From: a virus
IMG/VR virus record: IMGVR_UViG_3300042451_001157
Coordinates: 1 to 40,092 of that record
Length of the DNA stretch: 40,092 bases
Strand: one strand, 5' to 3'
The notes beneath the pieces are model-generated. The model ran no database searches. It was given only the letters and a program-made list of their open reading frames with translations, and had not been told where the DNA came from. This document shows, piece by piece, positions 13,095-40,092 of this stretch (position 1 is the first letter of the stretch; each line of letters opens with the position of its first letter). A program made the translations under genes and the position numbers.

Positions 13095-15560
13095 TTACTC
13101 CGTAATACTCACGTTTATTTTTTCAACCTTAGTATTATAGGTTATAACTATTTTACCAGATTTAGGCATTTGTTTACGTAACATTTCGTCAGAAATAGGA
13201 TCCTCAACATATTTTTGTATGGTTCTTTGGATCTCTCTTGCCCCATATAATTTATTAAAACCTTTTTCTAAAATAAAATCTTTAGTTTTTTTATCAATTT
13301 TAACAGTAAAGCCGATTTTATTTAAATGATTCTCAAAATCTTTTAATTGTAAATCAATGATTTTAATCACATCATCTTGTGTTAAGTAATTAAAATAGAC
13401 AATCTCATCCAAACGATTAATAAATTCTGGTTTAAAAGTTTTCTTAAGATTTTTTTCAATAATACTTTTTGAATTAGTATTGGACTCAGTTTCAGAATCA
13501 CTAAAACCAATCTTTGTACCAAAATCTTGAACTTCTTTTAACCCAATATTTGAAGTCATGATAATAATGGTGTTTTTAAAGTTAATTTTTCTACCATTAC
13601 CATCAGTTAGGAAACCTTCATCCAATAGTTGGAGCATTACGTTAAAAATATCTGGGTGAGCTTTTTCAATCTCGTCAAATAAAACCAAAGAGTATGGTTT
13701 ATTCTTAACTTTCTCGGTTAATTGACCACCTTCATTGTAACCAACATATCCTGGGGGCGCTCCAATCAATTTACTAATGTTAAATTTTTCAGAATATTCT
13801 GACATATCAACACGAATGATAGCATTCTGTGAGCCAAAAACTTTCTCAGCCAAAGATTTCGCTAATTCCGTTTTACCAACACCAGTTGGTCCGATAAATA
13901 AGAATGAACCGATTGGTTTAGATTGTTTTCTAATACCAGTTCTATTTCTTTTAATAGATGAAACTACTTTATCAATTGCATCTGACTGACCAATTACACA
14001 ATTAGCTAATTCTTTATCCATTGATAATAACCTAGTTATTTCATTTTCAGATACTTTGCTAACAGGTATACCAGTCATCATTGAGACAACTTCAGAAATC
14101 ATATCCGCATCAACAATATTCCTTTTATCATTAATCGATAATTTCCAAACCGAATTTTCTTTTTCTAATTCAGTTATAATTTTCTTTTCTTGGTCACGAA
14201 GTTGTGCAGCTTGTTCAAAATTTTGCGTTTTAACAACAAGTTGTTTTTGTTCCTTGATGTCTTTTAATTTAGTCTCAAGGTCTTTAATTTTTTGTGGTGC
14301 CTTAATTGCAACCTGAGTTCTTGAACCAGCTTCATCCATAATGTCGATAGCTTTATCAGGGAACTCTCTATTTGTAATGTAACGATCGGCCAATGCAATG
14401 ATTTCATTAATAGCCTCTTCGGTATAAGTTACCTTATGGAAATCTTCATACCTTTCTTTAATATTCATCAAGATTTGTTTCGTCTCATCCAATTGAGGTG
14501 GGTTAACCATAACTTTTTGGAATCTACGATCCAGCGCACCATCTTTTTCAATATGCTCACGATACTCGTCAAGAGTTGTAGCACCAATACATTGAAGTTC
14601 ACCACGTGCTAAAGCTGGTTTAAATACGTTTGCAGCGTCCAAAGAACCAGAAGAGTTACCAGCACCAACGATTGTATGTAATTCATCAATAAAAAGGATT
14701 ACATTTGGGTTATCCTTAGCTTCATCAACGATTGCTTTAATTCTCTCTTCGAATTGACCACGATATTTTGTACCAGCAACTAACGATGTCATGTCCAATG
14801 TTACGACACGTTTATTCATTAAAGGCCTTGGGCAATCACCATTTGCGATTTTAATTGCCAAGCTTTCAGCGATAGCTGTTTTACCAACACCTGGATCACC
14901 AATAAGGATTGGGTTATTTTTCTTTCTTCTCGTTAGAATTTGACAAACTCTTTCCACCTCAGAACTACGACCAATAACTGGGTCTAATTTACCCTCTTGC
15001 GCTAACACAGTTAAATCACGGCCAAAATTATCCAACGTTGGTGTTTTTGATTTAATATTTTTATTAGCCTCATTTAATGGTTTTCTATCCTTAGGGATTT
15101 CATCATCATTAGAAAATATACTCGATTGAGGTGTTGACAACTGTTTAATTTTTTTAGCAATAAACGTTTTTGTTAAACCATATTCCTTGAATAATTTAAC
15201 AATCGCATTATCTTTCTCCATCGAAATTAGAAAAAATAACTCAACTGTAATGTGGTCAGTGGGTTTTTTTCTAACAATACACTCTTTTATTATTTCCTGT
15301 AATTCTGGTTCAAACGGTAAGATACCATCTTGTTTATCGCTTGATGAATCCGACAATCTCTTATTAATGTCGTTTAAATCATTAACCATTACGTCAAAAT
15401 CAAGGACTTTGTTCTTAATAACCTCATATATCATATTCTCAGTAGTGAGAATACCAAATATAACATGCTGTAACCTAAGCATTGAATCGTTGTACTTAAT
15501 TGCCACGGATTGCCCTCTGGTAAAGGCGCTTCTCAATTCGTTTGTCATTTTTTCTTTCAT
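13095..15560 (-). CDS. clpC: ClpC/ClpA-type AAA+ unfoldase (Hsp100)
   Basis: An 821-residue two-AAA-module Hsp100 protein. A Clp N-domain occupies about residues 1-145. D1 has Walker A GDPGVGKT (221-228), Walker B VILFIDE (287-293) and an Arg-finger region RRF (345-347). A UVR-like coiled segment (about 445-465) separates the modules, as in ClpC rather than ClpB. D2 has Walker A GPTGVGKT (557-564), LVLFDE (625-630), FINRLDE (713-719) and sensor-2 GAR (773-775). Residues 684-686 are IGF, matching the [LIV]GF loop that docks ClpP, so the product probably feeds substrates to the host protease; no clpP lies in the window. Length fits cellular ClpC. ATG 15560 is the most upstream start, with a second Met at codon 5. 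It has its own divergent promoter. The family call is firm; the phage role is inferred. Confidence 0.95.
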
Positions 15561-16124: not shown

Positions 16125-16589
16125 ATGTACGTTGATGTAAGATATGAATCAAGAGCTAATATAACTTTCCATAATATGGCGAAGGTTTCCATACGTGGTA
16201 ACCAAAATTACCTTGTTAAATGGTATTATAATGATGAGTTTTTCGGTGAAATGTTCTTAAATGGTGGAACATGGGGGGCTTATCCGATGAATGAGATAGG
16301 TAATTGGAGAGTGGAATTTTGGCAAGAAAATAGATTAATATACACCTACACCAATATACTTGAAAAAAATAATATTCTTATATTATTTGATAATGATGGT
16401 AATGATTTTGGTGAATTCGCCAGAAAAGTTAAAGAATATTCTGATGACATATCAAATAGATTTGGTTGTAACACCTTTGTTTTCTTTAAAAATTCGGAAT
16501 TATGTGATTTTACCGATCATAAGGGTATACCATTAAGATTAAATGATGATATTAACAGCTTTAAAATTATTTATAACAAAATATTATAA
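16125..16589 (+). CDS. Unknown protein, 154 aa
   Basis: A 154-residue protein with an aromatic-rich N-terminal half (WYYNDEFFGEMF, NWRVEFWQEN) that looks like a small beta-sandwich of about 80 residues. A compact alpha/beta C-terminal half starts at the hydrophobic strand NILILFDNDGNDFGEF. No signal peptide or membrane segment is visible. I do not recognise a family. It starts 3 nt after the KTSC stop, and its stop shares a base with the start of the oxygenase gene, so it is co-translated with those genes. Confidence 0.75.
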   Translation: MYVDVRYESRANITFHNMAKVSIRGNQNYLVKWYYNDEFFGEMFLNGGTWGAYPMNEIGNWRVEFWQENRLIYTYTNILEKNNILILFDNDGNDFGEFARKVKEYSDDISNRFGCNTFVFFKNSELCDFTDHKGIPLRLNDDINSFKIIYNKIL

Positions 16590-17251
16590 TGGATAATTTA
16601 ATTAAAATATACGAAAACACTATTCCTAGAGAAGTTTGTGATTTTATCATAAACGAATTTGAAACATCTAAAAACCAAACGGAAGGTATTAGCGGTGCTG
16701 GTGTTAATAAACTCGTTAAATCCTCAACAGATTTGATGATTCACTTAAATCTGGATAACCCAAATTGGTTATATATCTATGATTACTTAAGAGAAAATTT
16801 ATTGGGTAATCTTGTTGAATATATTGAACAAAACAGTTTTATGACAATTACTGGTGGGTTTGCATCAAAAGCCTCTGCCGTGAGAACAGCTCAATCTTGT
16901 TATATTGCTGGTAATAACGGCCAACCACATATGCAAATGCAGAGATATATCGATGACCAAGGATATTATGCCTGGCACCATGAAAATGAGGGCGGCACAA
17001 CGGCTAAAAGAGAATTATTTTTTATTTATTATCTAAATGATGTTGATGGTGGTGAAACTGAATTTAAATTTAACCAGCAAAAAGTAAAACCAGAAACTGG
17101 TAAATTAGTTATAGCCCCAGCCTTATGGACACACAAACATCGTGGTAATCCCCCACAAAATGGTCAATACAAATATATCATCACAGGTTGGATCGAAAAA
17201 AAGGATGAACACTATATTTCTGAAGAATTTGAGGAAGATTACTTAATTTAA
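16589..17251 (+). CDS. 2-oxoglutarate/Fe(II)-dependent oxygenase
   Basis: A 220-residue protein of the prolyl-4-hydroxylase-like 2OG-Fe(II) superfamily. The iron site is visible as H130-x-E132 in WHHENEG (an HxE variant of HxD) and a distal His in WTHKHRGNPP (H182, with H184 nearby). Lys195 in KYIITGW is the likely 2-oxoglutarate contact. The double-stranded beta-helix core is suggested by LFFIYYLND and GGETEF. Such enzymes are frequent in large phages, where substrates are mostly unknown; protein or nucleic-acid hydroxylation are both possible. It overlaps the upstream gene by one base. There is no secretion signal, so it acts in the cytoplasm. Confidence 0.88.
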   Translation: MDNLIKIYENTIPREVCDFIINEFETSKNQTEGISGAGVNKLVKSSTDLMIHLNLDNPNWLYIYDYLRENLLGNLVEYIEQNSFMTITGGFASKASAVRTAQSCYIAGNNGQPHMQMQRYIDDQGYYAWHHENEGGTTAKRELFFIYYLNDVDGGETEFKFNQQKVKPETGKLVIAPALWTHKHRGNPPQNGQYKYIITGWIEKKDEHYISEEFEEDYLI

Positions 17252-26423: not shown

Positions 26424-26624
26424 ATGAGTTTTAATAAAAGATACGTTGACAGCCGTAAAATTTTAATATATAAAGATAGGTTGGGAGACCTCTTTACTGA
26501 TAAAATAGATGCATTTATATTCAGTGATAATTTCTCAAAAGAAATATTTGATTTATACGAAGAAAAAAAATTTGATTTAATTAGGCATCGAATACTTGAA
26601 TATGAAACTAAATCTTTGATCTAA
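26424..26624 (+). CDS. Small unknown protein, 66 aa
   Basis: 66 residues, Lys/Asp-rich and probably helical (DNFSKEIFDLYEEKKFDLIR). No family is recognised. It lies right after a terminator, with no promoter that I can see, and its last 48 nt overlap the 3' end of the convergent gene 26577-27314. Codon pattern and AT content match neighbours, but it could be a chance ORF. Confidence 0.5.
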   Translation: MSFNKRYVDSRKILIYKDRLGDLFTDKIDAFIFSDNFSKEIFDLYEEKKFDLIRHRILEYETKSLI

Positions 26625-27314
26625 AGGTTTTATATTTTTATTTAGTTCAGAACTAATTGTTGATAGATACCCCTCATAAACAAATCCAATGGATGTTGTT
26701 TTCTTAATTGCTTTGGTTATTGATAGGTTGTAATTACCAACCGTATTTTTAGCCCAGATTAAATCATTAGTCGAGACAACAGCTGGTTGTAACAACATAT
26801 TATGTTCAAGGGTATAATCAGTTATCTTATATTTTAAAGTATGTCTATACGATAACCTTTTACTACCAAACCAAAGTTTTGATATTTCAGACCTATCATA
26901 AACATATGCGAGTGATACGCTACCACCCAATTTATTAGTCTTAAATGACTTTTTAAGACCCATACCACCAGAAATACTTAAGTCCAAATTCTTAACCAAA
27001 GAATGTTCAACAGTTGAGAATAAAATCACACTGTAATTATTTTTAACCTCTTTCCAGGAAAAAATATTTAATCTGGCATCCTCAGATTGTTTAATAAATT
27101 CGTTATTTTTTTGTCCATAGAATAAAAAATAATATGGGTTTAAACTAACACCAACGTCCTTTTTTTTATTATTAAGTTCATAACTCATTTTAGACGTTAT
27201 CTGAACGTTTTTATTGTTTCCTGTAAGTAATACCCCACCGAAGTCAAAACTCTTTATTTGGGCCTCTAAACGGCCAAAAACGCATACTAATAGTATTGTT
27301 ATTAAGTATCTCAT
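26577..27314 (-). CDS. Secreted/outer-membrane beta-barrel-like protein
   Basis: 245 residues from ATG 27314 (MRYLITILLVCVFGRLEAQ, a signal peptide with an A-x-Q-type cleavage region). The mature part alternates polar and hydrophobic residues in short strands (DVGVSLNPYYFLFYG, YRHTLKYKITDYTLEHNMLL) and ends in an aromatic strand RFSFIFKYSMPN. This pattern fits a DUF481-like small outer-membrane barrel, as inference. It is the last gene of the eight-gene secretion-type operon and begins 1 nt after the preceding stop, so it is translationally coupled. Confidence 0.75.
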   Translation of the reverse strand: MRYLITILLVCVFGRLEAQIKSFDFGGVLLTGNNKNVQITSKMSYELNNKKKDVGVSLNPYYFLFYGQKNNEFIKQSEDARLNIFSWKEVKNNYSVILFSTVEHSLVKNLDLSISGGMGLKKSFKTNKLGGSVSLAYVYDRSEISKLWFGSKRLSYRHTLKYKITDYTLEHNMLLQPAVVSTNDLIWAKNTVGNYNLSITKAIKKTTSIGFVYEGYLSTISSELNKNIKPLDQRFSFIFKYSMPN

Positions 27315-27315
27315 C

Positions 27316-27804
27316 TTATAGTTTACTAACTGCGTCAATTATAGCCTTTTTCATTGCAATACCTATCGATGATTTACTAAATGGTACCTTACCCTCTTTC
27401 AATTCAATAAATGCGTAACTAGCGGTTGTCGCTGATTCACCAATACCATCAACAATCTTATCCCCAAAATGTAGTTTTAGTAGTATTTGTGTTGTTTCTG
27501 TTGCCGCACCAACACCAGCAATTCTAAAAGTTGTTGACGGTGTACCTACTCTAGTGATCTCAACCATAACTGGTATGGCGTTTTGTTCGCATAATGAATA
27601 TTTTTCAGATAAAACTTCTTCGGTAATTTGTTTAACCCCGAATAGTATATTCCTATCTTTAAATTCTTTTATTTTCATTGTGCTGTAAACCGAATCTACA
27701 CTAACACAAATTTGAGGGTACGCTGAGATCGGCCCATTGGTTTGAGAAAATGCTGAATTTGATACTGCGAGTATCATAATTAGCGAAAAAATAAACTGTT
27801 TCAT
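27316..27804 (-). CDS. Small secreted periplasmic/lipoprotein-like protein
   Basis: 162 residues with signal peptide MKQFIFSLIMILAVSNSAFS. The mature domain has an alpha/beta pattern (ITEEVLSEKY, IPVMVEITRVG, TTQILLKLHFG) and ends in a helix SSIGIAMKKAIIDAVSKL, reminiscent of the periplasmic alpha/beta fold of CsgG or LpoB-type proteins and of the end of the CsgG-family neighbour (STIGTSTKKALETA). I infer a periplasmic partner of the operon's export components. No catalytic residues are seen. Confidence 0.72.
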   Translation of the reverse strand: MKQFIFSLIMILAVSNSAFSQTNGPISAYPQICVSVDSVYSTMKIKEFKDRNILFGVKQITEEVLSEKYSLCEQNAIPVMVEITRVGTPSTTFRIAGVGAATETTQILLKLHFGDKIVDGIGESATTASYAFIELKEGKVPFSKSSIGIAMKKAIIDAVSKL

Positions 27805-27808
27805 AATT

Positions 27809-30106
27809 TTATTGTTTATAACCTGTTCTTATTATATAAAAATTTGTTGCCCCGTTATGGGATAAATTATCCATTGTAATGGATTGGGTGCCACTGTAAG
27901 TTGTTTTTAGATTACTATTAGACCCGTTAATAACAGACCACTGCGCTGCTGTAAATAATCTGTAATTTGGTGTTGAATTTAACCAACTAGGTATTACATT
28001 ATTTTTTCTTTGGAAGATTAAAACAACATCTGTTATTGATAATATATTATTGTTATTTACATCCATTCTATAATAATCTTTAGAGTTAAAAGATTGTGTA
28101 AATATTTTTTGGTTAAAAAATTGTGCATCCGTCACATCTGGTGCTAAAATACTAATGCTTTCACCCACTATAATTCTAAAATCATTTAAATTAACACTTT
28201 CATTAGTTGTTATCGTATATTTACCACTCACATCCGTAGTGTATGTACCAAGTAGTGTATATGTTGATTGTGTTTTAAGTTTAAAATGTAGTTTTACTGT
28301 TATCCCAGAAACACCAACCCCCTCAGCGTTGTAAACGTACCCAGAATACGCAAATGGTGCGACCACAATAACACCAGCATTAGAAAAAGTAAAACCGCAA
28401 GTACCACTCTGTAATTGGGCTCTAAATAATGTTGCATCTGTTTGATTTGTATAACTGTTTGTTGTACCTGTATTAGCGATATCAGTCCACGTAACACCAT
28501 TGTTTACAGATCTTTGCCACTTTACTATTGTACCTGTGTGACCACTCAAAGTTAAAGTACCAGAGTTTGTTGTTGTTGCATGCACAGCTGATGAAACTGA
28601 ACCACCTGTGGGTGGTGTACCAGAAATAACAGTAATGGTTTTACTGGTTGAAAAAACTGCGCTACCACAATTAGGTGTTTGAACTTCCACACGATAATAA
28701 TATGTACCAGATGATGATATTGTTTCTGTTAAAGTTGTGGTTGTGTTTGTTATATTTGTCCAGTTAACATTATCTGTTGATCTTTGCCATCTATTGATAT
28801 TACCTTGTTGGCCAGATAAGGTTAGTTCAACAACACCACCAGCACATATTGTGTTATTTGCCGCAAATACTGTCCCAGCATTAGTTGGTTTAACAGATAG
28901 ATAAACACTAGATGATGCTAATGATGAGCAGGTTACTGGACTACTTGAATTAACAATTGCCCTATAATAAGTTGTTTTTGTTATATTCGATATTGTTATA
29001 CTTGTTGACGTACTTGATATTGTTGTACCAGCTGTAAAGAAGTTATCAAAAGATGATTCCCATCTAGCGACACTACCAGTCATACTATTAAGGGTTAATG
29101 TGGTGCTATTTGAGCCAGAACATACATTTATATCCCCACCACTAATTGTACCAGTTGATCCATTACCAACATTAATTCGCCTTGTAAATATCGTTACACT
29201 GGATGTTAAATCACCTGGCATGTCACCGTATTCACAAATATAACCAGGTAAAGTTGTGTTAGGTAAGTCATTCCATGAACCACTATTTGCGGAATAGAAT
29301 TGTGCGTAATGTTCACCACCAGCGTTATTTGGCTCCCCGCTAGCCCACTTATGATATCGCCCACTAATTACTGTTGTACTCGGGGTGTTACCGTTTGAAA
29401 ATTGTGTACCTTTTTCTGGGCCAGTCACCCAGTGCCATTTCCCCTCTACCGCAGCTTGTGAAGCAAATGCTGTTGTACCTTTTGCAGTGTTAACTTGTGA
29501 AAGCTCATCAGAACCACCAAACCAACCGTCATTAGCCATAATTCTCCAGATAAAGTTATTTTCAGCTTCAGATGACATTGTCGCTAAATAACCAACTCTA
29601 CCAAAATATGAGCGATTTTCAGCTGAGGTTTTAGCACTTGTCCAAGATCCAGATGATGCAACATATTCATAAAAATGTTCGGTTAATGGATTATAAAATA
29701 CTGTACCCGCAACAAAAGTGATTCTTCTTATATTAGCGTAGCAAGTTGTTGTTGTTGATTTAAATGTAACCGTTCTTAAAAGAGTTTGCCAGTTTGCTGC
29801 TGTTGTTGTACCGTTAAAACTTAATATACCTGTTGTTGAGTTCCATGAAGCTGTTACACCGCTTGGTAACGTTCCAGTATAACTCAAAACATCACCAGAA
29901 GTATATGTTTGTGATATTTGAACCCTAAAGCCCGTTATATTACCGTTTGCTGTTATTGTTAAATCTGAATCAACAACACTTGTTGTGTTATATGAAACGG
30001 ATAAATTAGATGAGGTACCACCAACGGTTATAGAGGTTGCTTGTGCGTTAACAATGTTTGCACAACAGATAAACATAACCAAGAATAAAAAAAACCTTCT
30101 CATCAT
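27809..30106 (-). CDS. Secreted C-type lectin / Ig-like / dockerin-like surface protein
   Basis: 765 residues with signal peptide 1-22 (MMRRFFLFLVMFICCANIVN, cleaved near AQ). A C-type-lectin-like domain spans about 138-293, with EPN at 258-260 (mannose-type calcium/sugar motif), WND at 278-280 and a closing YICEYG. Three Ig-like repeats (about 320-405, 410-492, 500-580) share WQRS-type strands. A carboxypeptidase-regulatory-like domain (587-650) precedes a dockerin-like duplicated calcium loop (DVNNNNILSITD at 682-693) and a short C-terminal module shared with the 33102-35000 protein. It probably binds a glycan outside the cell. Its start overlaps the preceding stop (ATGA). No T9SS tail is visible, so anchoring may be through the dockerin-like module. 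Confidence 0.85.
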   Translation of the reverse strand: MMRRFFLFLVMFICCANIVNAQATSITVGGTSSNLSVSYNTTSVVDSDLTITANGNITGFRVQISQTYTSGDVLSYTGTLPSGVTASWNSTTGILSFNGTTTAANWQTLLRTVTFKSTTTTCYANIRRITFVAGTVFYNPLTEHFYEYVASSGSWTSAKTSAENRSYFGRVGYLATMSSEAENNFIWRIMANDGWFGGSDELSQVNTAKGTTAFASQAAVEGKWHWVTGPEKGTQFSNGNTPSTTVISGRYHKWASGEPNNAGGEHYAQFYSANSGSWNDLPNTTLPGYICEYGDMPGDLTSSVTIFTRRINVGNGSTGTISGGDINVCSGSNSTTLTLNSMTGSVARWESSFDNFFTAGTTISSTSTSITISNITKTTYYRAIVNSSSPVTCSSLASSSVYLSVKPTNAGTVFAANNTICAGGVVELTLSGQQGNINRWQRSTDNVNWTNITNTTTTLTETISSSGTYYYRVEVQTPNCGSAVFSTSKTITVISGTPPTGGSVSSAVHATTTNSGTLTLSGHTGTIVKWQRSVNNGVTWTDIANTGTTNSYTNQTDATLFRAQLQSGTCGFTFSNAGVIVVAPFAYSGYVYNAEGVGVSGITVKLHFKLKTQSTYTLLGTYTTDVSGKYTITTNESVNLNDFRIIVGESISILAPDVTDAQFFNQKIFTQSFNSKDYYRMDVNNNNILSITDVVLIFQRKNNVIPSWLNSTPNYRLFTAAQWSVINGSNSNLKTTYSGTQSITMDNLSHNGATNFYIIRTGYKQ

Positions 30107-31629
30107 AACGCCAATCTTGTACCCATCATTAAAGTGTAGTTTAACACATTATCCCCAATTGAATAAGCACCGCCAAAATTAAAATTTAATTTAAATGTTT
30201 TTGTAACACCTAAATTCATACCAACGATTGGTAAAATAACAAATGGTGATTTTAATAAAGCATCATCATAATACCTAACAAAAGGTGCGTAAACGAACAA
30301 AGCCATTGTTTTAATATCAACCCTTTTACCTATTTTAAAATCCCTATTACCACCAATAATCGCTGCTGACCCATAATAAGGTTCTTTATATATTTGCCCA
30401 GCTGAAGCTGTTAACATGTAAACAGCTTTAAATTTTTTAATACTCCTCATCTGACCAAAAGCGAGGGTGTTATACATAGACCCACTACCAGCAAAACCAA
30501 TTGTTATTGTATTTGAAAGTAGTGTAATTGCTTTACGGTTTATCCAAGCGTAATAACCAGTAATGTTACCACCTTGTATTGAAGATGTGTAATCAAGCAT
30601 AAGGCCATGTGATCTTAGACCGTCATATCTTACCGATGAGTAGCCCGCATTAACCCTTGAACCCCTGTTAATTTCTCCTTCATTGAATTGAAAACCAACC
30701 AAATCACTACTCATGAGTATTGATGGTCTACCCCCATTTTTACTTGTAGCTGATCCTTTACTATTACTACTACCACTTTTCACAGCGTTAGTTGTCCCAC
30801 CTACGGCATCAGATTTTTTATCCGAACTACCTTCTGTTTGATTTGGTGTAGAGCTACCACCGTCCCCGCCACCAGAACCTGAGCTGCTTGTGGTGGTACC
30901 ACCTGAGCCACCAGAGCCTGAACCACTTGTAGTGGTTCCACCCGAGCCACCAGATCCACCAGTGTTGTTTGGTGCACTACCTTTTTCTTCCGACCCATTC
31001 GAACCACCAGTTTGTCCCCCTGACCCACCAGTTTGCTCCCCTGATCCACTCGAATTACCAGTTTGCCCCCCTGATCCACTCGACCCATTCGAACCTTCAT
31101 TATTATTAGAACCAGTATTACTTCCACTACCAGAACCACCAGAAGTTGTTGATCCGCTAGAATTGTTTCCATTTTTATTTTCTTTGTTATTGTTAGAGGA
31201 TTTAGAATCACCGTTACCACCCCCCACGTTATTTATTGACCCAGCGGCTGCCATTATATTTCCCGTACCACTAGATGCCATATCACTAATAGCCGATAAA
31301 GCTCCGAATATACTAATTACATTCAGAGCGGTACTTTGAGTTTGTGACACCGTAACAGCTGTCCCAATACCACCACATGGTGAAGCGTTTTGATATTGAT
31401 TAAAAACACCAGCGGCCCAGTTATCAAACGCACCGTTATTAAAATCATTAGCTGTAAACGTATTAACTTGACCGTAGTACGTTACAGCTATTTGATTTTG
31501 CCCATAAGGAATTGATAAATTGTAAACCTTGCCATTACAAGGGTCTGTATAGGAATAGTTAAATGTTTGTGCATTTGCTATACTGCATAGCAAAGACACA
31601 CAAAAAATTATAATTAATCTTATTCCCAC
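30103..31629 (-). CDS. Secreted protein with Gly/Ser/Asn linker and outer-membrane barrel-like C-terminus
   Basis: 508 residues from a GTG start at 31629 (no ATG precedes the signal peptide MGIRLIIIFCVSLLCSIANA). A Cys-containing N-terminal domain (about 22-130) is followed by a low-complexity Gly/Ser/Asn linker (about 131-300; GGSGG, GQTGG and TTTSG motifs). The C-terminal 200 residues show alternating strands (GLMLDYTSSIQGGNITGYYAWI) ending MMGTRLAL, suggesting an outer-membrane barrel. The linker could span the periplasm or project a head domain. It starts 6 nt after the CsgG-family stop. No homolog is recognised. Confidence 0.75.
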   Translation of the reverse strand: MGIRLIIIFCVSLLCSIANAQTFNYSYTDPCNGKVYNLSIPYGQNQIAVTYYGQVNTFTANDFNNGAFDNWAAGVFNQYQNASPCGGIGTAVTVSQTQSTALNVISIFGALSAISDMASSGTGNIMAAAGSINNVGGGNGDSKSSNNNKENKNGNNSSGSTTSGGSGSGSNTGSNNNEGSNGSSGSGGQTGNSSGSGEQTGGSGGQTGGSNGSEEKGSAPNNTGGSGGSGGTTTSGSGSGGSGGTTTSSSGSGGGDGGSSTPNQTEGSSDKKSDAVGGTTNAVKSGSSNSKGSATSKNGGRPSILMSSDLVGFQFNEGEINRGSRVNAGYSSVRYDGLRSHGLMLDYTSSIQGGNITGYYAWINRKAITLLSNTITIGFAGSGSMYNTLAFGQMRSIKKFKAVYMLTASAGQIYKEPYYGSAAIIGGNRDFKIGKRVDIKTMALFVYAPFVRYYDDALLKSPFVILPIVGMNLGVTKTFKLNFNFGGAYSIGDNVLNYTLMMGTRLAL

Positions 31630-31635
31630 GCACCT

Positions 31636-32361
31636 TTAATTCTTGAATAAACCTTTTTTAATTAATTTTACAACAACTCTAGATGATGCGGTTTCTAACG
31701 CTTTTTTTGTTGATGTGCCTATTGTAGATTGATTAAATTTGATTTCATCCACATCATCTAATATTGTTGACATTTTTACAGTTTTAGCTTCACCTAAACC
31801 AGAACCAACGATAACCTCACCAGTCTCAGCATCAACAAATTTAACTTGCATACCTAATCTGGTTGTTTGTGTTGCCGTAGCTTTTCCATTAACTTTAACA
31901 ACCTCATCTTCGGATACACTAAAGTCATAAACCTCAATGTACACAAAGTATTTTGCTAATTTAACTTTACCCCTACCATCTACCTTGTTTTCGGTAAAAC
32001 CTTTATCAGATGCTTTAAATTGGTTAACCATTCTTTCTTTGATTTCTAACTTATCTTCAGTAAAGACAAATCTATTAGTCATTTCAAGGAACTCGATAAC
32101 AATATTAGTTACACCCAAACCAACTCTTTTATCTTTTAGTTCAGGATACATCTCATAAAGTTCTTCTGTGAACCCAATTTTTAATAATTGGATTGGGTAC
32201 TTTACGGTATCAGTATAGTTCGAAACAACATCAATAGATTGTGTTTGCTCAAAACTAGCCTTATATTCTTCGGTTTTAACGCTACCAATAGTAACTGGTT
32301 GTCCCTGTGCGTAAACACAAGAACAACCAATCATTAATAATATAAAAAATATTCTTTTCAT
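31636..32361 (-). CDS. CsgG-family secretion-channel-like protein
   Basis: 241 residues from ATG 32361; the longer reading starts at a non-conserved Met. The signal sequence MKRIFFILLMIGCSCVYAQG contains two Cys in a lipobox-like setting (MIGC), though an AQ-type cleavage is also possible. The body follows the CsgG pattern: GLGVTNIVIEFLEMTNRFVF, then KLAKYFVYIEVYDFS, then RLGMQVKFVDAETGEVIVGS and a final helix GTSTKKALETASSRVVVKLI. CsgG forms the outer-membrane pore for curli subunits in other bacteria. No CsgA/B-like amyloid repeat is in the window, so substrate and pore activity are unproven. Confidence 0.82.
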   Translation of the reverse strand: MKRIFFILLMIGCSCVYAQGQPVTIGSVKTEEYKASFEQTQSIDVVSNYTDTVKYPIQLLKIGFTEELYEMYPELKDKRVGLGVTNIVIEFLEMTNRFVFTEDKLEIKERMVNQFKASDKGFTENKVDGRGKVKLAKYFVYIEVYDFSVSEDEVVKVNGKATATQTTRLGMQVKFVDAETGEVIVGSGLGEAKTVKMSTILDDVDEIKFNQSTIGTSTKKALETASSRVVVKLIKKGLFKN

Positions 32362-32362
32362 T

Positions 32363-32719
32363 TTAAATTTCTGTTGTATTTGATAAAGACACACCGTCTT
32401 CCTCATCAACTTTTTGTATTAACATCTTATCTCTATCTTCTGAATTAAACCAGTAGTCAACAACTTTATTCAAGTTACCAACAAAGGCACCTAATAAAAT
32501 TAATAACATTTCTTTCCAGTCTTCTCCGATTGTAGCCCCCATGAAAACACCTGCGTTGATACCAACAATTATTAATGTGAATAACCCCAATACAATTGCT
32601 GTTATTCTCCATCTATTAGATTGCATTTGTTGCAACATGTAGTAAAATCTGTTTTTATCCTCTACTTGTACAGGCGCTGGTGAGCTAACCATGCTTTTTA
32701 AAGTTTCTTTAATTTTCAT
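32363..32719 (-). CDS. Small membrane protein, holin-like
   Basis: 118 residues from ATG 32719; an earlier frame opening uses TTG and is less likely. After a basic N-terminus there is a membrane segment WRITAIVLGLFTLIIVGIN, then a second hydrophobic segment MLLILLGAFVGNLNKVVDYW and a charged tail with KMLIQKVDEEDG. Two segments plus a charged tail resemble phage holin-like proteins of the yyFGSS type. The stop lies 1 nt before the CsgG-family start. It may serve as holin for the GH19 endolysin, or act with the secretion operon. Confidence 0.7.
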   Translation of the reverse strand: MKIKETLKSMVSSPAPVQVEDKNRFYYMLQQMQSNRWRITAIVLGLFTLIIVGINAGVFMGATIGEDWKEMLLILLGAFVGNLNKVVDYWFNSEDRDKMLIQKVDEEDGVSLSNTTEI

Positions 32720-32754
32720 ATCTTCTTCGTTTGTTTTATTTATTTTCTTTTTCC

Positions 32755-33090
32755 TTACCAAGGACTATCTTCAGTTTCTGATTTTTTAGCTGGTTTTTCT
32801 TCTTTAACTGGTGCTGCTTTTTCAACCACAGTTGTTTTTTCTTTGATGATAGTGTTAGTACCACCAGCAGCTGCATTATTTTTAGAAGAGTTATCAACAC
32901 TTATGTTGATCGCTGGGGCTGGAGCCGCTTGCTCTGTCTTCGTCTCTTCTTTATCATCACCACCACCAAATAAAGTTGTGGTAAAGTAGGTACCACCAGC
33001 CATAACAGCTGTTGTGATGATACCAATTATTGTTTTCTTTAAACCTGACCATGTTCCGTCTGATTCAGGTACGTTTGTTTCTTCTGACAT
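32755..33090 (-). CDS. Small single-pass membrane protein
   Basis: 111 residues: an acidic N-terminus, one membrane segment (KKTIIGIITTAVMAGGTYFT), then a long Lys/Glu/Ala-rich soluble tail (KEKTTVVEKAAPVKEEKPAK) ending in DSPW. No cleavable signal peptide. It lies 11 nt below the T9SS-tailed gene. The long charged tail could span the periplasm, TonB- or spanin-like; no motif settles this. Confidence 0.7.
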   Translation of the reverse strand: MSEETNVPESDGTWSGLKKTIIGIITTAVMAGGTYFTTTLFGGGDDKEETKTEQAAPAPAINISVDNSSKNNAAAGGTNTIIKEKTTVVEKAAPVKEEKPAKKSETEDSPW

Positions 33091-33101
33091 TGTTTTAAAT
33101 T

Positions 33102-35000
33102 TTAGTTTAGTTTTATTGTTTTATTTGTTTTAACTTCATTTTGTGTTTTTAAAATACCATAGTATGTACCTGGTATAACATTACTTAAATCAACAGGGTA
33201 AACATACTTACCTTCGTACATTTTACCACTGAATACGGTGTATACTAATCTACCGTTTGCGTCATAAAAACCAACTGTAACTTCACCATCTTCTGGTACA
33301 CTAAAGCTAACATAAGTCAAACCTTCAGTAGGGTTAGGGGCAACAATTATTTCACAATCTTTGGTTAATGTACCACCACCATTTATTTTGAATATTTTAA
33401 CAACACCATTTGTTGGGGTTATTCTTAAATCAGTTGCACTCGCATCACCAGCGAATTTTCTAATAACATATAATGGACTATCATCCCAATCAACTTGTGG
33501 TGATAACGCTAAAAATTGTAACGTTAAAACAGCGTCATTGTTATTAGCTAAATACTCATTTCTACTCATATCAGCACCAGCCCATTCAACAACTCCATTA
33601 TTAGGGTTTAAGAATGACATCCAGTTCATAAATTTTTGTTCTGTTTTGATACCTTTAAATTCTAATAAAGCATTGTCGTAAGCTAAAGCTAATTGGATTG
33701 AACCAACCTGACCACCATCAGTTAAAACTTTCATAGGTACATTAACTAAATTACCTTCGCTAACTTCAATTTTAGGTAAATTGATTTCGATTGTTGATGT
33801 AGGGAAATCATATTCAACAGTTTCGTCAATGATATATTTAGGGGTTTTACTAGGGTTTAAGATTTCGATAGGGATTGTACGAGCCATGTTAAATCCAGTA
33901 CCGTTAGCATCACCACCACCTAATACATAATATGTTACTGAGTCTGGTTGACCAGCGATGATATCAAATACTAAGTTAGTTACACCAGCGATAGTTGATG
34001 TGTAGTTAGTTGAAGATCCGTTAATAGTGTTATATTGTGAAACCGTAAAGAATCTTATGTCTTGTACAGCATTTGGCCATACAGAGAATCTACCCGCTAA
34101 ACGACCATAGATGGCTGATACGTCAGCAATTGTAATGTTATTTGATCCGTTAACGTCTGAAGCGTAATAATCAAATCCAGTTGGTGTCATCTCACCAAGT
34201 ATGTATTTGTTAACTCTTTGTGCATCTGCAACAGAAACTTCATTACCAATAGCCATTGTATCACCTTTAACATATAAATGAGCATCCCAATAGGTTGTAT
34301 CCAATATCTCGTCAAAAGCGAAATAGCCAGTAATGTCTGTTGTATCAAGTTTTACTTGAGTCCAGGCACCAGTTGATGTCTTAGGCCTCTTCTCAAGAGC
34401 CACTGTAATATCTTTAGACCCAGAACCAGTTACGTTTGTAAATCTTCCGTGGTATTTCAATCTATTCATCTTAAATTCACCACCATAACTATGCAAAGAT
34501 AATGTTGTATCTATACCAGCAATTGTTGAAGCGTAAGATGGGAACGTTAAAGTACCAACCACTTTTAAACTATCAATGCTCGTTAAAGCTTGGAATGCTG
34601 TTGCGTTTTGGTGAAAGAATTTTATTTGGAAAGCAGCGCCAGTAGCATATGTAAATGCAGTGTTTGTACCTGTATAAGCTAACGTAACTGTGATGTTACC
34701 ATTAACCGAATCCGCTACATATTGCATGTACTGATCAGAAGAACTGTACTGTAAAGTAACGATTGGTTTTGCACCCCCGAAAGCTACTTTGTCGTAGAAC
34801 ACACGGAACTGTAAACCAGCGATTTTAGTCGTTGTTGTGTTGTCATAATAAAGGTTGGCTAAAGTGTAACCTTGTGATTGTGGACCAACATTGTAAGATG
34901 AGTCAACGATAACCCAATTACCATTTGATGGTGCCGTTGTTTGTGCGTAACCAATAACGGTTAAACATGCCATTACTAGCGTTAAAAAGAAATTTTTCAT
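33102..35000 (-). CDS. T9SS-targeted cohesin/dockerin-like surface protein
   Basis: 632 residues from ATG 35000 (MKNFFLTLVMACLTVIGYAQ signal peptide; the longer frame adds 20 unlikely residues). Numbered on the longer frame, a cohesin-like beta domain spans about 45-180, a regulatory-like beta domain about 200-265, and a dockerin-like pair of calcium loops 270-322 (DVNGSNNITIAD at 302-313). A shared C-terminal module follows, then a second cohesin-like domain at about 425-555 (GSIQLALAYDNALLEFKGI). A T9SS type A sorting domain closes the protein (571-652; VAPNPTEGLTYVSFSV, then YDANGRLVY and PGTYYGILKT). The tail predicts export by the host type IX secretion system. First gene of the operon; no clear promoter seen. 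Confidence 0.9.
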   Translation of the reverse strand: MKNFFLTLVMACLTVIGYAQTTAPSNGNWVIVDSSYNVGPQSQGYTLANLYYDNTTTTKIAGLQFRVFYDKVAFGGAKPIVTLQYSSSDQYMQYVADSVNGNITVTLAYTGTNTAFTYATGAAFQIKFFHQNATAFQALTSIDSLKVVGTLTFPSYASTIAGIDTTLSLHSYGGEFKMNRLKYHGRFTNVTGSGSKDITVALEKRPKTSTGAWTQVKLDTTDITGYFAFDEILDTTYWDAHLYVKGDTMAIGNEVSVADAQRVNKYILGEMTPTGFDYYASDVNGSNNITIADVSAIYGRLAGRFSVWPNAVQDIRFFTVSQYNTINGSSTNYTSTIAGVTNLVFDIIAGQPDSVTYYVLGGGDANGTGFNMARTIPIEILNPSKTPKYIIDETVEYDFPTSTIEINLPKIEVSEGNLVNVPMKVLTDGGQVGSIQLALAYDNALLEFKGIKTEQKFMNWMSFLNPNNGVVEWAGADMSRNEYLANNNDAVLTLQFLALSPQVDWDDSPLYVIRKFAGDASATDLRITPTNGVVKIFKINGGGTLTKDCEIIVAPNPTEGLTYVSFSVPEDGEVTVGFYDANGRLVYTVFSGKMYEGKYVYPVDLSNVIPGTYYGILKTQNEVKTNKTIKLN

Positions 35001-35126
35001 GTTGTTTTGTTTTGATATTAATAAATACTGAAAAAAGTTAAAAAAACCATTTACTTTCAAAAAAAAAGTACTAAAGATGAAAATAACTTTTGCGATAAAT
35101 CAAGATATTTATTGACAAAAAAGGGT

Positions 35127-35642: not shown

Positions 35643-35717
35643 AGCGTAGTTGGCCAATTGGTAGGCCGCCTCATTTGGGATGAGGACATAGTGCAGGTTC
35701 GAGTCCTGTCTACGCTA
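35643..35717 (+). tRNA. tRNA-Pro (TGG), copy 1
   Basis: Seven-pair acceptor AGCGTAG/CTACGCT, D-stem GGCC/GGCC, anticodon stem CCTCA/TGAGG with loop TTTGGGA (anticodon TGG, G37), T-arm with TTCGAGT. CCA is not encoded. Confidence 0.9.
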
Positions 35718-35723
35718 CTATTT

Positions 35724-35799
35724 CAGGATATGGGGGAGTCAGGCCGTCCCTACCTGCCTTGGACGCAGGGGATCGCTGGTTCGAATCCAGCTATTCTGA
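35724..35799 (+). tRNA. tRNA-Pro (TGG), copy 2
   Basis: Acceptor CAGGATA/TATTCTG gives C1-G72 with A73, as expected for bacterial tRNA-Pro; T8 and A14 are in place. Anticodon stem CCTGC/GCAGG with loop CTTGGAC (TGG, A37). The body differs strongly from copy 1. Confidence 0.82.
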
Positions 35800-35805
35800 C
35801 AAAAT

Positions 35806-35880
35806 GTCTTCGTAGCTCAGTTGGTTTAGAGCACCTCACTTTTAATGAGGGAGTCACAGGTTCGAGTCCTGTCGGGGACA
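35806..35880 (+). tRNA. tRNA-Lys (TTT)
   Basis: Acceptor GTCTTCG/CGGGGAC, anticodon stem CCTCA/TGAGG, loop CTTTTAA, T-arm CACAGG-TTCGAGT-CCTG. Confidence 0.92.
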
Positions 35881-35885
35881 CAAAC

Positions 35886-35955
35886 GTATAAGTTGATCGT
35901 GGTGGTCGGTTGGTCTGCAAAACCAACGGTGTTGGTTCGATTCCAACCTTATACT
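35886..35955 (+). tRNA. tRNA-Cys (GCA)
   Basis: Acceptor GTATAAG/CTTATAC with discriminator T as in other tRNA-Cys; anticodon stem TTGGT/ACCAA with loop CTGCAAA. A short 70-nt body. Confidence 0.88.
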
Positions 35956-35963
35956 CAAATATA

Positions 35964-36036
35964 CACGGATATGGTGAAATGGTATCATAATGGTCTCCAA
36001 AACCACAGTTCAGGGTTCGAATCCTTGTATCCGTGC
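35964..36036 (+). tRNA. tRNA-Trp (CCA)
   Basis: Acceptor CACGGAT/ATCCGTG; anticodon loop CTCCAAA closed by TGGT/ACCA; T-arm AGGG-TTCGAAT-CCTT. The 5' end may be off by one base. Confidence 0.85.
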
Positions 36037-36041
36037 TAAAT

Positions 36042-36121
36042 GCCCTTGTAGGCGAATGGTATAGCCGCTGGTTTTAGAAACCAGAGCGAAAGCATTGCAG
36101 GTTCGAGTCCTGCCAGGGGTA
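36042..36121 (+). tRNA. tRNA-Leu (TAG)
   Basis: Acceptor GCCCTTG/CAGGGGT, anticodon stem CTGGT/ACCAG with loop TTTAGAA, a long variable arm, and T-arm GCAGG-TTCGAGT-CCTGC. Confidence 0.9.
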
Positions 36122-36126
36122 CACAT

Positions 36127-36199
36127 GCACCTTTAGCTCAGTTGGTAGAGCGCTGCCCTTACATGGCAGATGTCATAGGTTCGAGTCCTATAGGGTGTA
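36127..36199 (+). tRNA. tRNA-Val (TAC)
   Basis: Acceptor GCACCTT/AGGGTGT, anticodon stem CTGCC/GGCAG, loop CTTACAT, T-arm ATAGG-TTCGAGT-CCTAT. Confidence 0.92.
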
Positions 36200-36204
36200 C
36201 AAAG

Positions 36205-36333
36205 GTTGATCGGGGAATGATTGCATCAATAGTTCGAGAGTGAATACTGACTGGTGTGATCGGAGTTTGCAGGTATTCACCCAAGTAATGCCGATCGTAA
36301 AAGAGGATGTCCACTGAACCATCTTCCTCTTTC
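36205..36333 (+). ncRNA. Structured non-coding RNA candidate within the tRNA array
   Basis: About 130 nt between tRNA-Val and tRNA-Tyr that is not tRNA and holds no convincing ORF. Perfect stems are visible: GATCGG (36208-36213) with CCGATC (36291-36296) enclosing GTGAATAC (36240-36247) with GTATTCAC (36273-36280). A 3' hairpin follows, pairing AAGAGGA near 36300 with TCCTCTT near 36325. A second GATCGG at 36258-36263 could compete for the same CCGATC. No known RNA family is recognised. Confidence 0.5.
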
Positions 36334-36340
36334 CTAACTT

Positions 36341-36422
36341 GCCAGTATCGCATAGCGGCAATTGCGGCAGACTGTAAATCTGCTCCCTTACGGGTTCGGT
36401 GGTTCGAGTCCACCTGCTGGCA
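36341..36422 (+). tRNA. tRNA-Tyr (GTA)
   Basis: Acceptor GCCAGTA/TGCTGGC, anticodon stem GCAGA/TCTGC with loop CTGTAAA, a long variable arm as expected for bacterial Tyr, and T-arm GGTGG-TTCGAGT-CCACC. Confidence 0.92.
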
Positions 36423-36434
36423 CTATTTATTAAT

Positions 36435-36896
36435 ATGAGAAAACTAATATTAATGATTGTAATGGTTTTATCCACAACGATTTGTAAATCACAAATTGTG
36501 ATCGATAAAGCTGGGGATGGTTGGGATCTAAGAGCTGATAGCGCTTTAGCTATTATCAAACAAACGGATACCACCGCTTATAAACTTGTGTTACGAGTTT
36601 GTAATAAAATAACTTTTTGGTCTGGGAACTACTCAACAAATGAGGGTTCTAAAGACACAAAAGGAAGTATAATAATATCATCTACAGATGCTAGGGCAAA
36701 ATCCCTAAATAACCTTGCTGCTGTTATTGTACATGAATCTTTACATCTTTATCTTAGATATAGAGGTGTTCAAGAATCACCAAGAGAAGAAATACTTTGT
36801 TATTCATATGAGTATGACTTCTTGAGGAAAATACCAAATGTTGAACAGTATCTGTTGGATCATTGTCTAAAACAGATAAGTCTTCGACAAAATTAA
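36435..36896 (+). CDS. Secreted HExxH-motif protein (putative zinc metallopeptidase)
   Basis: 153 residues from ATG 36435. Signal peptide MRKLILMIVMVLSTTICKSQ. HESLH at 100-104 fits the HExxH zinc signature, and EE at 118-119, 15-16 residues after its second His, could supply a third ligand as in gluzincin-type enzymes. Two Cys near the C-terminus (122 and 144) may form a disulphide. The gene is embedded between tRNA-Tyr and tRNA-Ala with only 12 and 1 nt of spacing, so it is co-transcribed with the tRNAs. It may process or degrade envelope proteins; activity is not shown. Confidence 0.78.
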   Translation: MRKLILMIVMVLSTTICKSQIVIDKAGDGWDLRADSALAIIKQTDTTAYKLVLRVCNKITFWSGNYSTNEGSKDTKGSIIISSTDARAKSLNNLAAVIVHESLHLYLRYRGVQESPREEILCYSYEYDFLRKIPNVEQYLLDHCLKQISLRQN

Positions 36897-36897
36897 T

Positions 36898-36970
36898 GGG
36901 GTCATAGCTCAATTGGCTGAGCGCTACCCTTGCAAGGTAGAGGATGTGGGTTCAAGTCCCACTGGCTCCA
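36898..36970 (+). tRNA. tRNA-Ala (TGC)
   Basis: Acceptor GGGGTCA/TGGCTCC, anticodon stem CTACC/GGTAG, loop CTTGCAA, T-arm GTGGG-TTCAAGT-CCCAC. It begins 1 nt after the preceding stop codon. Confidence 0.92.
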
Positions 36971-36976
36971 CTATAT

Positions 36977-37047
36977 TGTCCCTTGGTGTAATGGCAGCAC
37001 ATCTGGTTTTGAGCCAGAGAATTCAGGTTCGAGTCCTGAAGGGACAA
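36977..37047 (+). tRNA. tRNA-Gln (TTG)
   Basis: Acceptor TGTCCCT/AGGGACA, anticodon stem TCTGG/CCAGA, loop TTTTGAG, T-arm TCAGG-TTCGAGT-CCTGA. Confidence 0.9.
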
Positions 37048-37052
37048 CTAAT

Positions 37053-37124
37053 GGCGAGATAGCTCAGAGGAAGAGCATTCGGCTCATATCCGAAAGGTCG
37101 GGATTTCGAAACTCCCTCTCGCTA
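37053..37124 (+). tRNA. tRNA-Met or tRNA-Ile2 (CAT)
   Basis: Acceptor GGCGAGA/TCTCGCT, anticodon stem TTCGG/CCGAA, loop CTCATAT. An unpaired first base pair, as in initiator tRNA, is not seen, so it is an elongator Met or a lysidine-modified Ile2; the sequence alone does not decide. Confidence 0.85.
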
Positions 37125-37132
37125 CCATATAT

Positions 37133-37206
37133 GGTGTCTGTAGCTCAATCGGGAGAGCACTTGATTGTGATTCAAGAGGTAGTGGGATCGAAACCCACCA
37201 GTCACC
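37133..37206 (+). tRNA. tRNA-His (GTG)
   Basis: An extra 5' G (37133) faces C 37206, the tRNA-His G-1:C73 hallmark. Acceptor GTGTCTG/CAGTCAC has one T-T mismatch; anticodon stem CTTGA/TCAAG with loop TTGTGAT. Confidence 0.9.
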
Positions 37207-37212
37207 CAAAAT

Positions 37213-37286
37213 ACCTTCATAGCTCAATGGATTAGAGCGTTTCGCTACGAACGAAAAGGTTGGGAGTTCGAGTCTCTCTGAAGGTA
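37213..37286 (+). tRNA. tRNA-Arg (ACG)
   Basis: Acceptor ACCTTCA/TGAAGGT, anticodon stem TTTCG/CGAAA, loop CTACGAA; A34 would need deamination to read CGN codons. Confidence 0.92.
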
Positions 37287-37329
37287 CAATAAACTTGTTT
37301 TTGCAACAATAAACCAACCAAGTTTATTG
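37287..37329 (+). repeat. Intergenic hairpin between tRNA-Arg and tRNA-Ile
   Basis: CAATAAACTTG (37287-37297) pairs perfectly with CAAGTTTATTG (37319-37329) across a 21-nt loop. No T-run follows, so it is more likely an RNA-processing or stability element than a terminator. Confidence 0.6.
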
Positions 37330-37346
37330 AGCAAAATCTAATTTAT

Positions 37347-37420
37347 CGTCCTGTAGCTCAGTTGGTTAGAGCGTCTGCCTGATACGCAGAAGGTCGTTGG
37401 TTCGAGTCCAGCTAGGACGA
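37347..37420 (+). tRNA. tRNA-Ile (GAT)
   Basis: Acceptor CGTCCTG/TAGGACG, anticodon stem TCTGC/GCAGA, loop CTGATAC, T-arm GTTGG-TTCGAGT-CCAGC. Last tRNA of the array. Confidence 0.92.
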
Positions 37421-37486
37421 CTTAAGATTTTAATTACCAATACCGTCTTTTTTTCGTTTATAAAAGTATTTATAATAAAAGCTTTT

Positions 37487-39193: not shown

Positions 39194-40092
39194 TTATAAT
39201 CCGTATTTTGATTTATCCGCATTAAAGTTTTGTAAAACTTGGGTAGAGGTAAGTGATGTGTTGTATAAACGTGTAATACCAATTTTTCCATCAAACCATT
39301 GAGAGTATTCCCCCCCATTATAACTACCTATGTAAAGTGGGTTAGTTGAGTTTAATATACTTGGTAAACTATGACTTACACTTCCTATACTTACACCATT
39401 TACAAATGTTTCAAGTGTATTAGATGCGACATTAGTAAACACATAAACTATCTGATACCAAGTACCAATCGTTCCAACGTAGTTTGTACTATTAACAAAC
39501 AATGATGAACCACTACCACTACCTGAACCTAATTGAGCGTAGTATGTAGTATTAGTTGTTCTGATACTATAACTTACATCTACAGTAAGACCACCATTAT
39601 CAAACTTTCCAATTACAACATCGTTACCCGATACTGCTTGATTAACCCATACTTCTATAGTCCAATCGCCACTTCCTGGTTCTAATAACACATTATCCGC
39701 AACTTGAACTTGTGATGAAGTTCCATTATATGTGAAGTATGGTGATGTATATGTGATATTGGACATTGTACCATTCAAACCATTACCTGATAAATCATTA
39801 ATTGTCGTACCTGTTCCAGGGTAACTTGATAAATTACTTGGGTCATAATATAACCTAAGGTTACTTGTTACAGGTGCCACAAATCTTGGGGCCAAATAAT
39901 TGTATTGTTGTGTTATTTCTCCTAACGTTAATTTCCTATTATAAAAATATAAATTCGCTAAGTACCCAAATGGTTGACTTGGTCCCTGATTATTACCCCA
40001 AGTCCAATGTGTGGTACCACCCGCACCAAAAGAAATAGGATCACCGACTTCTATATTATTAATGTAGAATGTTTGTGATGAACTATCCCCGA
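39194..40092 (-). CDS. LamG/ConA-like repeat adhesin, C-terminal part (N-terminus beyond window)
   Basis: The minus-strand frame is open from the right edge to its stop at 39194, about 299 codons; its start lies outside. Two consecutive LamG-type jelly-roll domains are visible. The first is only a C-terminal portion (FYINNIEVGDPISFGAGG, then YLANLYFYNRKLTLGEI). The second is complete, with LRLYYDPSNLSSYPGTG, WTIEVWVNQ, TFVNGVSIGS and a closing GKIGITRLYNTSLTSTQV. Such domains bind carbohydrate and are common in phage tail fibres and large adhesins. The TTG at 39895 is not a convincing start because the frame continues coherently upstream. Confidence 0.85.
   Translation of the reverse strand, partial: GDSSSQTFYINNIEVGDPISFGAGGTTHWTWGNNQGPSQPFGYLANLYFYNRKLTLGEITQQYNYLAPRFVAPVTSNLRLYYDPSNLSSYPGTGTTINDLSGNGLNGTMSNITYTSPYFTYNGTSSQVQVADNVLLEPGSGDWTIEVWVNQAVSGNDVVIGKFDNGGLTVDVSYSIRTTNTTYYAQLGSGSGSGSSLFVNSTNYVGTIGTWYQIVYVFTNVASNTLETFVNGVSIGSVSHSLPSILNSTNPLYIGSYNGGEYSQWFDGKIGITRLYNTSLTSTQVLQNFNADKSKYGL

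Follow-up and report, generated by a model that had tools for sequence, protein, structure and literature searches.

The question raised by the stretch of DNA analysed here (the window: 40,092 bases, a single IMG/VR virus record, IMGVR_UViG_3300042451_001157) is what purpose a phage may have for an operon whose products are mostly exported. Eight co-directional minus-strand genes, A–H, occupy 26577–35060, neighbours overlapping or lying apart by no more than a few bases; the upper limit is that of the open reading frame of A as listed (652 residues), its likely start being the Met at 35000. Gene positions and translations bear out the preliminary description of this DNA, in which eight tightly packed genes were placed at 26577–35000 and six products were given signal peptides; by the present calls the six are A, D, E, F, G and H. 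The wider claim in that description, of an operon of exported surface proteins, holds for these six; B and C are predicted inner-membrane proteins. The answer proposed here, to which about an even chance is given, is the display on the infected cell of a glycan-binding scaffold that is not a part of the virion, the leading candidate benefit being to keep out other phages or to shield progeny from spent cells.

Signal-peptide-like starts were found in 73 of 84 homologues of A, 77/82 of D, 59/70 of E, 59/68 of F and 55/65 of G; the background in the same loci was 62 of 711 other proteins of at least 120 residues, and the enrichment is therefore not due to chance. These starts were scored with a rough home-made rule and not with SignalP; in 17 of 44 loci C is counted as well, owing to the membrane helix of that protein.

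The module is a stable phage possession. Scanning of IMG/VR with D gave 211 relatives and an independent scan with A gave 217 (the two sets overlap in contigs); of the 77 loci newly fetched after the second scan, 76 had D next to A, and the remaining locus is cut short. The order A-B-C-D-E-F-G was kept nearly everywhere in 80 fetched loci (gene calls mechanical) and in that of a cultured myophage, vB_FspM_immuto (immuto; NC_055915; host Flavobacterium sp. LMO8), which carries a divergent version of the module at gp013–gp019; many IMG/VR contigs are near-duplicates, so that locus counts overstate the independent cases. The sequences, more than 200, are environmental, come from large phages and are related to viruses of Bacteroidota. 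Among 84,980 genome species, D had two relatives only, both on phage-like contigs binned into metagenome-assembled genomes (MAGs), with an endolysin, tail-collar-like proteins and a tRNA array on the same contigs. A further set, 121 genomes of the Flavobacterium genus group, was reached through the MAG holding the phage contig; the sole strong match to D in it lies on that very phage-like contig, and no genome (0/121) has a cohesin-family match above the cut-off. Confinement to phage-like contigs in the genome scans, together with cultured immuto, is the ground for regarding the module as stably owned by phages. A host-DNA chimera or host island was considered and rejected, since ~210 phage contigs and cultured immuto carry the module and the genome-collection matches are phage-like; the locus is thus phage-borne as first supposed, its gene order is conserved in other large phages, and exported homologues exist in related phages.

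The informative part of the operon is the cohesin/dockerin pair. Protein A (33102–35000) carries a dockerin-like module, a cohesin and a C-terminal type A sorting domain of the type IX secretion system (T9SS), as identified with Pfam and NCBIfam. The sorting domain, already named in the preliminary description, passed both curated cut-offs: PF18962, 28.3 bits (cut-off 27); TIGR04183, 27.5 bits (cut-off 23). The cohesin (PF00963) gave 33 bits (cut-off 24.1; E 8e-8), and the dockerin-like region of the window copy 19.4 bits in Pfam, under the cut-off of 22.9. Homologues of A (29 proteins) contained the sorting domain in 29, the cohesin in 28, a Pfam dockerin match in 11 and the dockerin calcium-loop pattern in all 29. 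Exactly one T9SS sorting domain per record, adjoining a cohesin match, was found in 19 phage records searched whole (18 from IMG/VR, 100–434 kb, and immuto). A tblastn search for T9SS tags in other phages, with a consensus made by eye from alignment A4, gave no match and missed immuto too, and so had little power. Overlooked at first were the cohesin, the dockerin-like domains (in A as well as in F) and G, the second protein of CsgG fold.

Protein F (27809–30106) is exported and comprises a C-type lectin region (residues ~172–292) and a C-terminal dockerin-like module resembling that of A (Pfam, calcium-loop pattern). The lectin match of the window copy is weak (16.8 bits; cut-off 22.6); E 1.4e-16 was reached in one homologue and the domain was found in 19 of 30, so that the earlier assignment of a C-type-lectin protein is sustained through the homologues, the window copy itself lying below the cut-off. 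The calcium-loop pattern is present in 26/30 and a Pfam dockerin match in 5/30. Binding domains in the 30 proteins, some of which have more than one: C-type lectin, 19; LamG_3, 9; GEVED, 3; Ig_7, 3; PA14, 2. The dockerin end is thus constant while the binding domain differs between phages; a constant dock with a swapped head is the pattern expected of a binder that has to meet different ligands and yet attach to one and the same partner.

Protein D (31636–32361), likewise exported, is among the most conserved of the module (66–79% identity between the window and diverse phages). It had been called CsgG-like, which stands for the fold and falls for the family. Pfam CsgG (PF03783) was not matched at E 10 by the window copy, nor by any of 21 homologues, and D was rejected as a CsgG by sequence; curlin and CsgF were not matched among the window operon genes either (Pfam, NCBIfam). 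The AlphaFold2 model of D (mean predicted local distance difference test, pLDDT, 69) gave CsgG as its 17 best Foldseek matches (best E 5.8e-7), followed by FlgT, PelC, LptE and others; the query-normalised TM-scores to CsgG are below 0.5, and a modelled CsgG/PelC/LptE fold class is accordingly claimed, not a curli pore. A Cys near the signal peptide is present in some members, not all. Protein G (27316–27804; 162 residues, exported) is a short paralogue of D (hhalign probability 96.4%, E 1.3e-9). A sequence search of solved structures with D and G gave nothing meaningful.

Protein E (30103–31629) consists of a signal peptide, a short conserved N-terminal domain, a Gly/Ser-rich linker of variable length and a C-terminal barrel (alignment A3, model); its last 209 residues were modelled as a 12-strand antiparallel barrel (pLDDT 83). 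Foldseek likens this barrel to NanC, FapF and autotransporter domains, which points to an outer-membrane barrel of no particular kind. E adjoins D in 66 loci (median gap 0). Proteins of the fold class of D often work with outer-membrane barrels, and with the adjacency this makes a D–E complex plausible. Protein H (26577–27314), exported and beta-rich, belongs to a minority of loci (19 labelled homologues; the family spans 22 loci); of the two barrel-like proteins first proposed, E is thus a predicted barrel, and H is barrel-like by eye.

B and C are predicted, by hydropathy and by eye, to be small inner-membrane proteins. B (32755–33090; 111 residues) has one weak membrane segment near the N-terminus and a low-complexity tail; in the 77 loci where it was found it always ends in Trp (77/77) and mostly starts with MSEE (70/77). 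C (32363–32719; 118 residues) has two predicted membrane segments and a holin-like size, and is extremely conserved (70–86% identity to most homologues, alignment A8). Its place is often taken in other phages by another small membrane protein, in some of them one of 93 residues with no demonstrable relation; homology of the two found no support (8% probability). In two distant phages (L016:9334-9984 and L084:6908-7480), C bears an extra Asp/Gly-rich C-terminal tail with a Cys/His pattern resembling calcium- or zinc-binding sites.

Phage origin, conservation, export signals, the T9SS tag, the cohesin/dockerin signatures, the CsgG fold, the barrel and the swapped binding domain were computed; from these we infer A–F binding, the D–E complex, timing and benefit. 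Protein A, with its Sec signal and T9SS type A tag, would be carried across the outer membrane by the T9SS of the host and left at the surface. There its cohesin would bind the dockerin of F, and its own dockerin may chain it to further copies of A; F would display a lectin domain that differs between phages. D and G may join barrel E in a complex at the outer membrane, with B and C linking it to the inner membrane; the most likely task of this complex would be to export or anchor F. The resulting glycan-binding coat would, during infection, block other phages or stop progeny from sticking to spent cells. Exported phage surface proteins of known role serve mostly to exclude other phages or protect progeny, and this benefit is favoured for that reason. 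Nine proteins searched with the PADLOC models of known anti-phage defence (E 0.01) gave no matches. Remodelling of the envelope of the infected cell, as suggested before, is a reasonable inference; the benefits then attached to it (masking, exclusion, aggregation, biofilm) are candidates.

Genomic placement bears on timing. In immuto the module directly follows ribonucleotide reductase (RNR) and nuclease genes and lies ~130 kb from the sheath, tube and tape measure genes; in four environmental loci (L023, L040, L054, L061) it follows DnaB, NrdB and NrdA, and in three (L048–L050) a replication block without RNR precedes it. Such a position, after replication/RNR genes and far from tail genes, makes membership of the virion less likely and suggests that the genes are expressed ahead of lysis.

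Four points weigh against surface display as outlined. F is without a T9SS tag. The D model is moderate, with the low TM-scores given above. In at least 10 loci the gene immediately upstream of A, and co-directional with it, is that of an endolysin, which fits a role in lysis too. Finally, F and the fibres of the same genomes have dissimilar LamG domains: those of F fall into two groups (45–83% alike across phages) and are at most ~37% like fibre LamG. Recent acquisition of F LamG from the phage's own tail fibre was rejected on this likeness, and copying of the phage's receptor specificity by F is thereby left without support; a prediction derived from the masking idea, reuse of the tail-fibre LamG by F, failed with it.

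The same scaffold may instead serve adhesion, gluing infected cells, siblings or particles so that progeny meet new hosts. This account is rather unlikely; as a benefit, adhesion ranks close behind exclusion or progeny protection. Exchangeable lectin heads on a surface scaffold would suit it. The CsgG/CsgF operon of pelagimyophages and of Methylophilales phage Melnitz has been read as a means of sibling capture or of lysis control (PMC7029224, PMC9004378). Sibling capture was put forward for such phages (PMC7029224); however, no clumping was seen with Melnitz (PMC9004378).

Lysis control is the second function discussed for those phages, CsgG being suggested as a pinholin of Melnitz (PMC9004378). 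Applied to the present module, B and C would be holin- or spanin-like, D, E and G would open the outer membrane, and A and F would be accessory. C and its 93-residue replacement, each with two membrane segments, are indeed of a size usual for holins; the latter stands directly before the endolysin in 7 loci, and the 10 loci with a co-directional endolysin immediately before A point the same way. B and C, however, have no family match (Pfam, NCBIfam), a search for holin families giving only weak, unrelated matches; the endolysin of the window (phrog_181, 3e-68) is on the strand opposite to the operon; and the module follows replication/RNR genes in immuto and its relatives. The T9SS tag, cohesin, dockerin and variable lectin would be left unexplained, and a lysis module is accordingly considered distinctly unlikely.

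Exported enzymes near the operon raise a third possibility, a scaffold bearing enzymes that degrade outside DNA or protein, whether to feed the infected cell or to destroy incoming phage DNA. A DNA/RNA non-specific endonuclease with a signal peptide (Pfam 5e-21) is located in or beside the operon in 16 loci (including L055:14075-14665 and L064:13423-14010), and in immuto a NUC1 nuclease is found 14 bases upstream of F. Protein Z (36435–36896, plus strand) is an exported putative zinc peptidase, with HExxH and a downstream Glu in 42/42 sequences; a family search with it gave no match. It lies apart from the operon in the window, inside a tRNA array, and after G within the operon in most other phages, adjoining G in 39 loci. 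The exported endonuclease is nevertheless absent from the window and from most loci, and a dockerin is seen on neither the nuclease nor Z; digestion is therefore held to be very improbable. Decoration of released virions by proteins first exported and later joined as outer adhesins has the slightest chance of all, for although lectin, LamG and PA14 domains occur on phage fibres too, the signal peptides and T9SS tag lead away from cytoplasmic virion assembly, the immuto module is far from structural genes and the LamG of F is a lineage separate from that of fibres.

Surface display of a scaffold thus remains the preferred reading, and its relation to known systems can be stated as follows. With the CsgG/CsgF phages the module shares a phage-borne operon, an exported CsgG-fold protein and small proteins of unassigned role. 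Those phages match CsgG and CsgF, whereas here D fails Pfam CsgG and neither CsgF nor curlin is matched; the module adds the T9SS-tagged cohesin protein, the lectin-dockerin protein and the 12-strand barrel, and only one protein's fold is common to both (two counting G, by profile comparison). As in cellulosomes, cohesin and dockerin modules with the calcium-loop pattern are located on different secreted proteins of one operon; here they are phage-encoded, the partner carries a lectin and not a cellulase, the dockerin scores are weak and binding is predicted from sequence. A resembles the T9SS type A cargo of Bacteroidota in its signal peptide and in a C-terminal domain that passes the cut-offs of both TIGR04183 and PF18962, and differs in being phage-encoded, one protein per phage, with reliance on the host machine as far as searched. 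PelB-PelC and LptD-LptE likewise set a periplasmic protein of the CsgG/PelC/LptE fold beside an outer-membrane barrel; no sequence relation to them was found, the D–E pairing being drawn from adjacency and fold. Immuto shares the module, with 66% identity in D; its record already names the lectin and cohesin domains and gives no function; there A is split into two genes, F comes first and no C homologue was found.

The first impression that no phage system with such a set had been described agrees with the literature searched, in which no published description was found; no paper describing phage T9SS cargo or phage cohesin/dockerin pairs appeared in it either, many subscription journals being outside its range, and a 2020 paper on Baltic Sea Flavobacterium phages mentions neither T9SS cargo nor cohesin/dockerin. 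The module belongs with phage-borne operons for surface proteins, and has a fair prospect of meriting a separate class. A further step, that a phage-specific trans-envelope complex (B-C-D-E) and a T9SS-exported cohesin-dockerin fibre with lectin heads constitute viral machinery of a new class, by which the cell surface could be programmed for exclusion or capture, is possible, its chances being clearly short of even. If the proposal is true, this would be, within the literature searched, the first phage system to borrow a host secretion machine (T9SS) so as to display its products on the infected cell, and likewise the first instance of cohesin-dockerin assembly being used by a phage. Recurring as it does in environmental sequences, the module may, in lakes and seas, affect how infected Bacteroidota interact with particles, cells and other phages. 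Direct tests are within reach, immuto and its host Flavobacterium sp. LMO8 being a cultured pair.

Clear phage genes of the window outside the operon are the endolysin, a deoxynucleotide monophosphate kinase, a fibre gene, a Clp-type ATPase and 14 tRNAs. The tRNA array spans 35643–37421 (plus strand), with Z inside. The ATPase (13095–15560, minus strand; 821 residues) is a ClpB/ClpC-like AAA+ protein with a UVR motif and a match to phage family phrog_4871. The frame at 3–13004 (minus strand; at least 4,334 residues, open at the window edge) is built almost entirely of two or three kinds of short repeat rich in Gly, Ser and Thr and is probably a giant collagen-like fibre. A LamG-domain protein at 39194–40090 (minus strand), cut by the window edge, matches phage virion structural families and is likely a fibre or tip protein. 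A 2-oxoglutarate-Fe(II) oxygenase is encoded at 16589–17251 (plus strand); its nearest relatives in phage records are from cyanophages and other marine phages (~35% identity).

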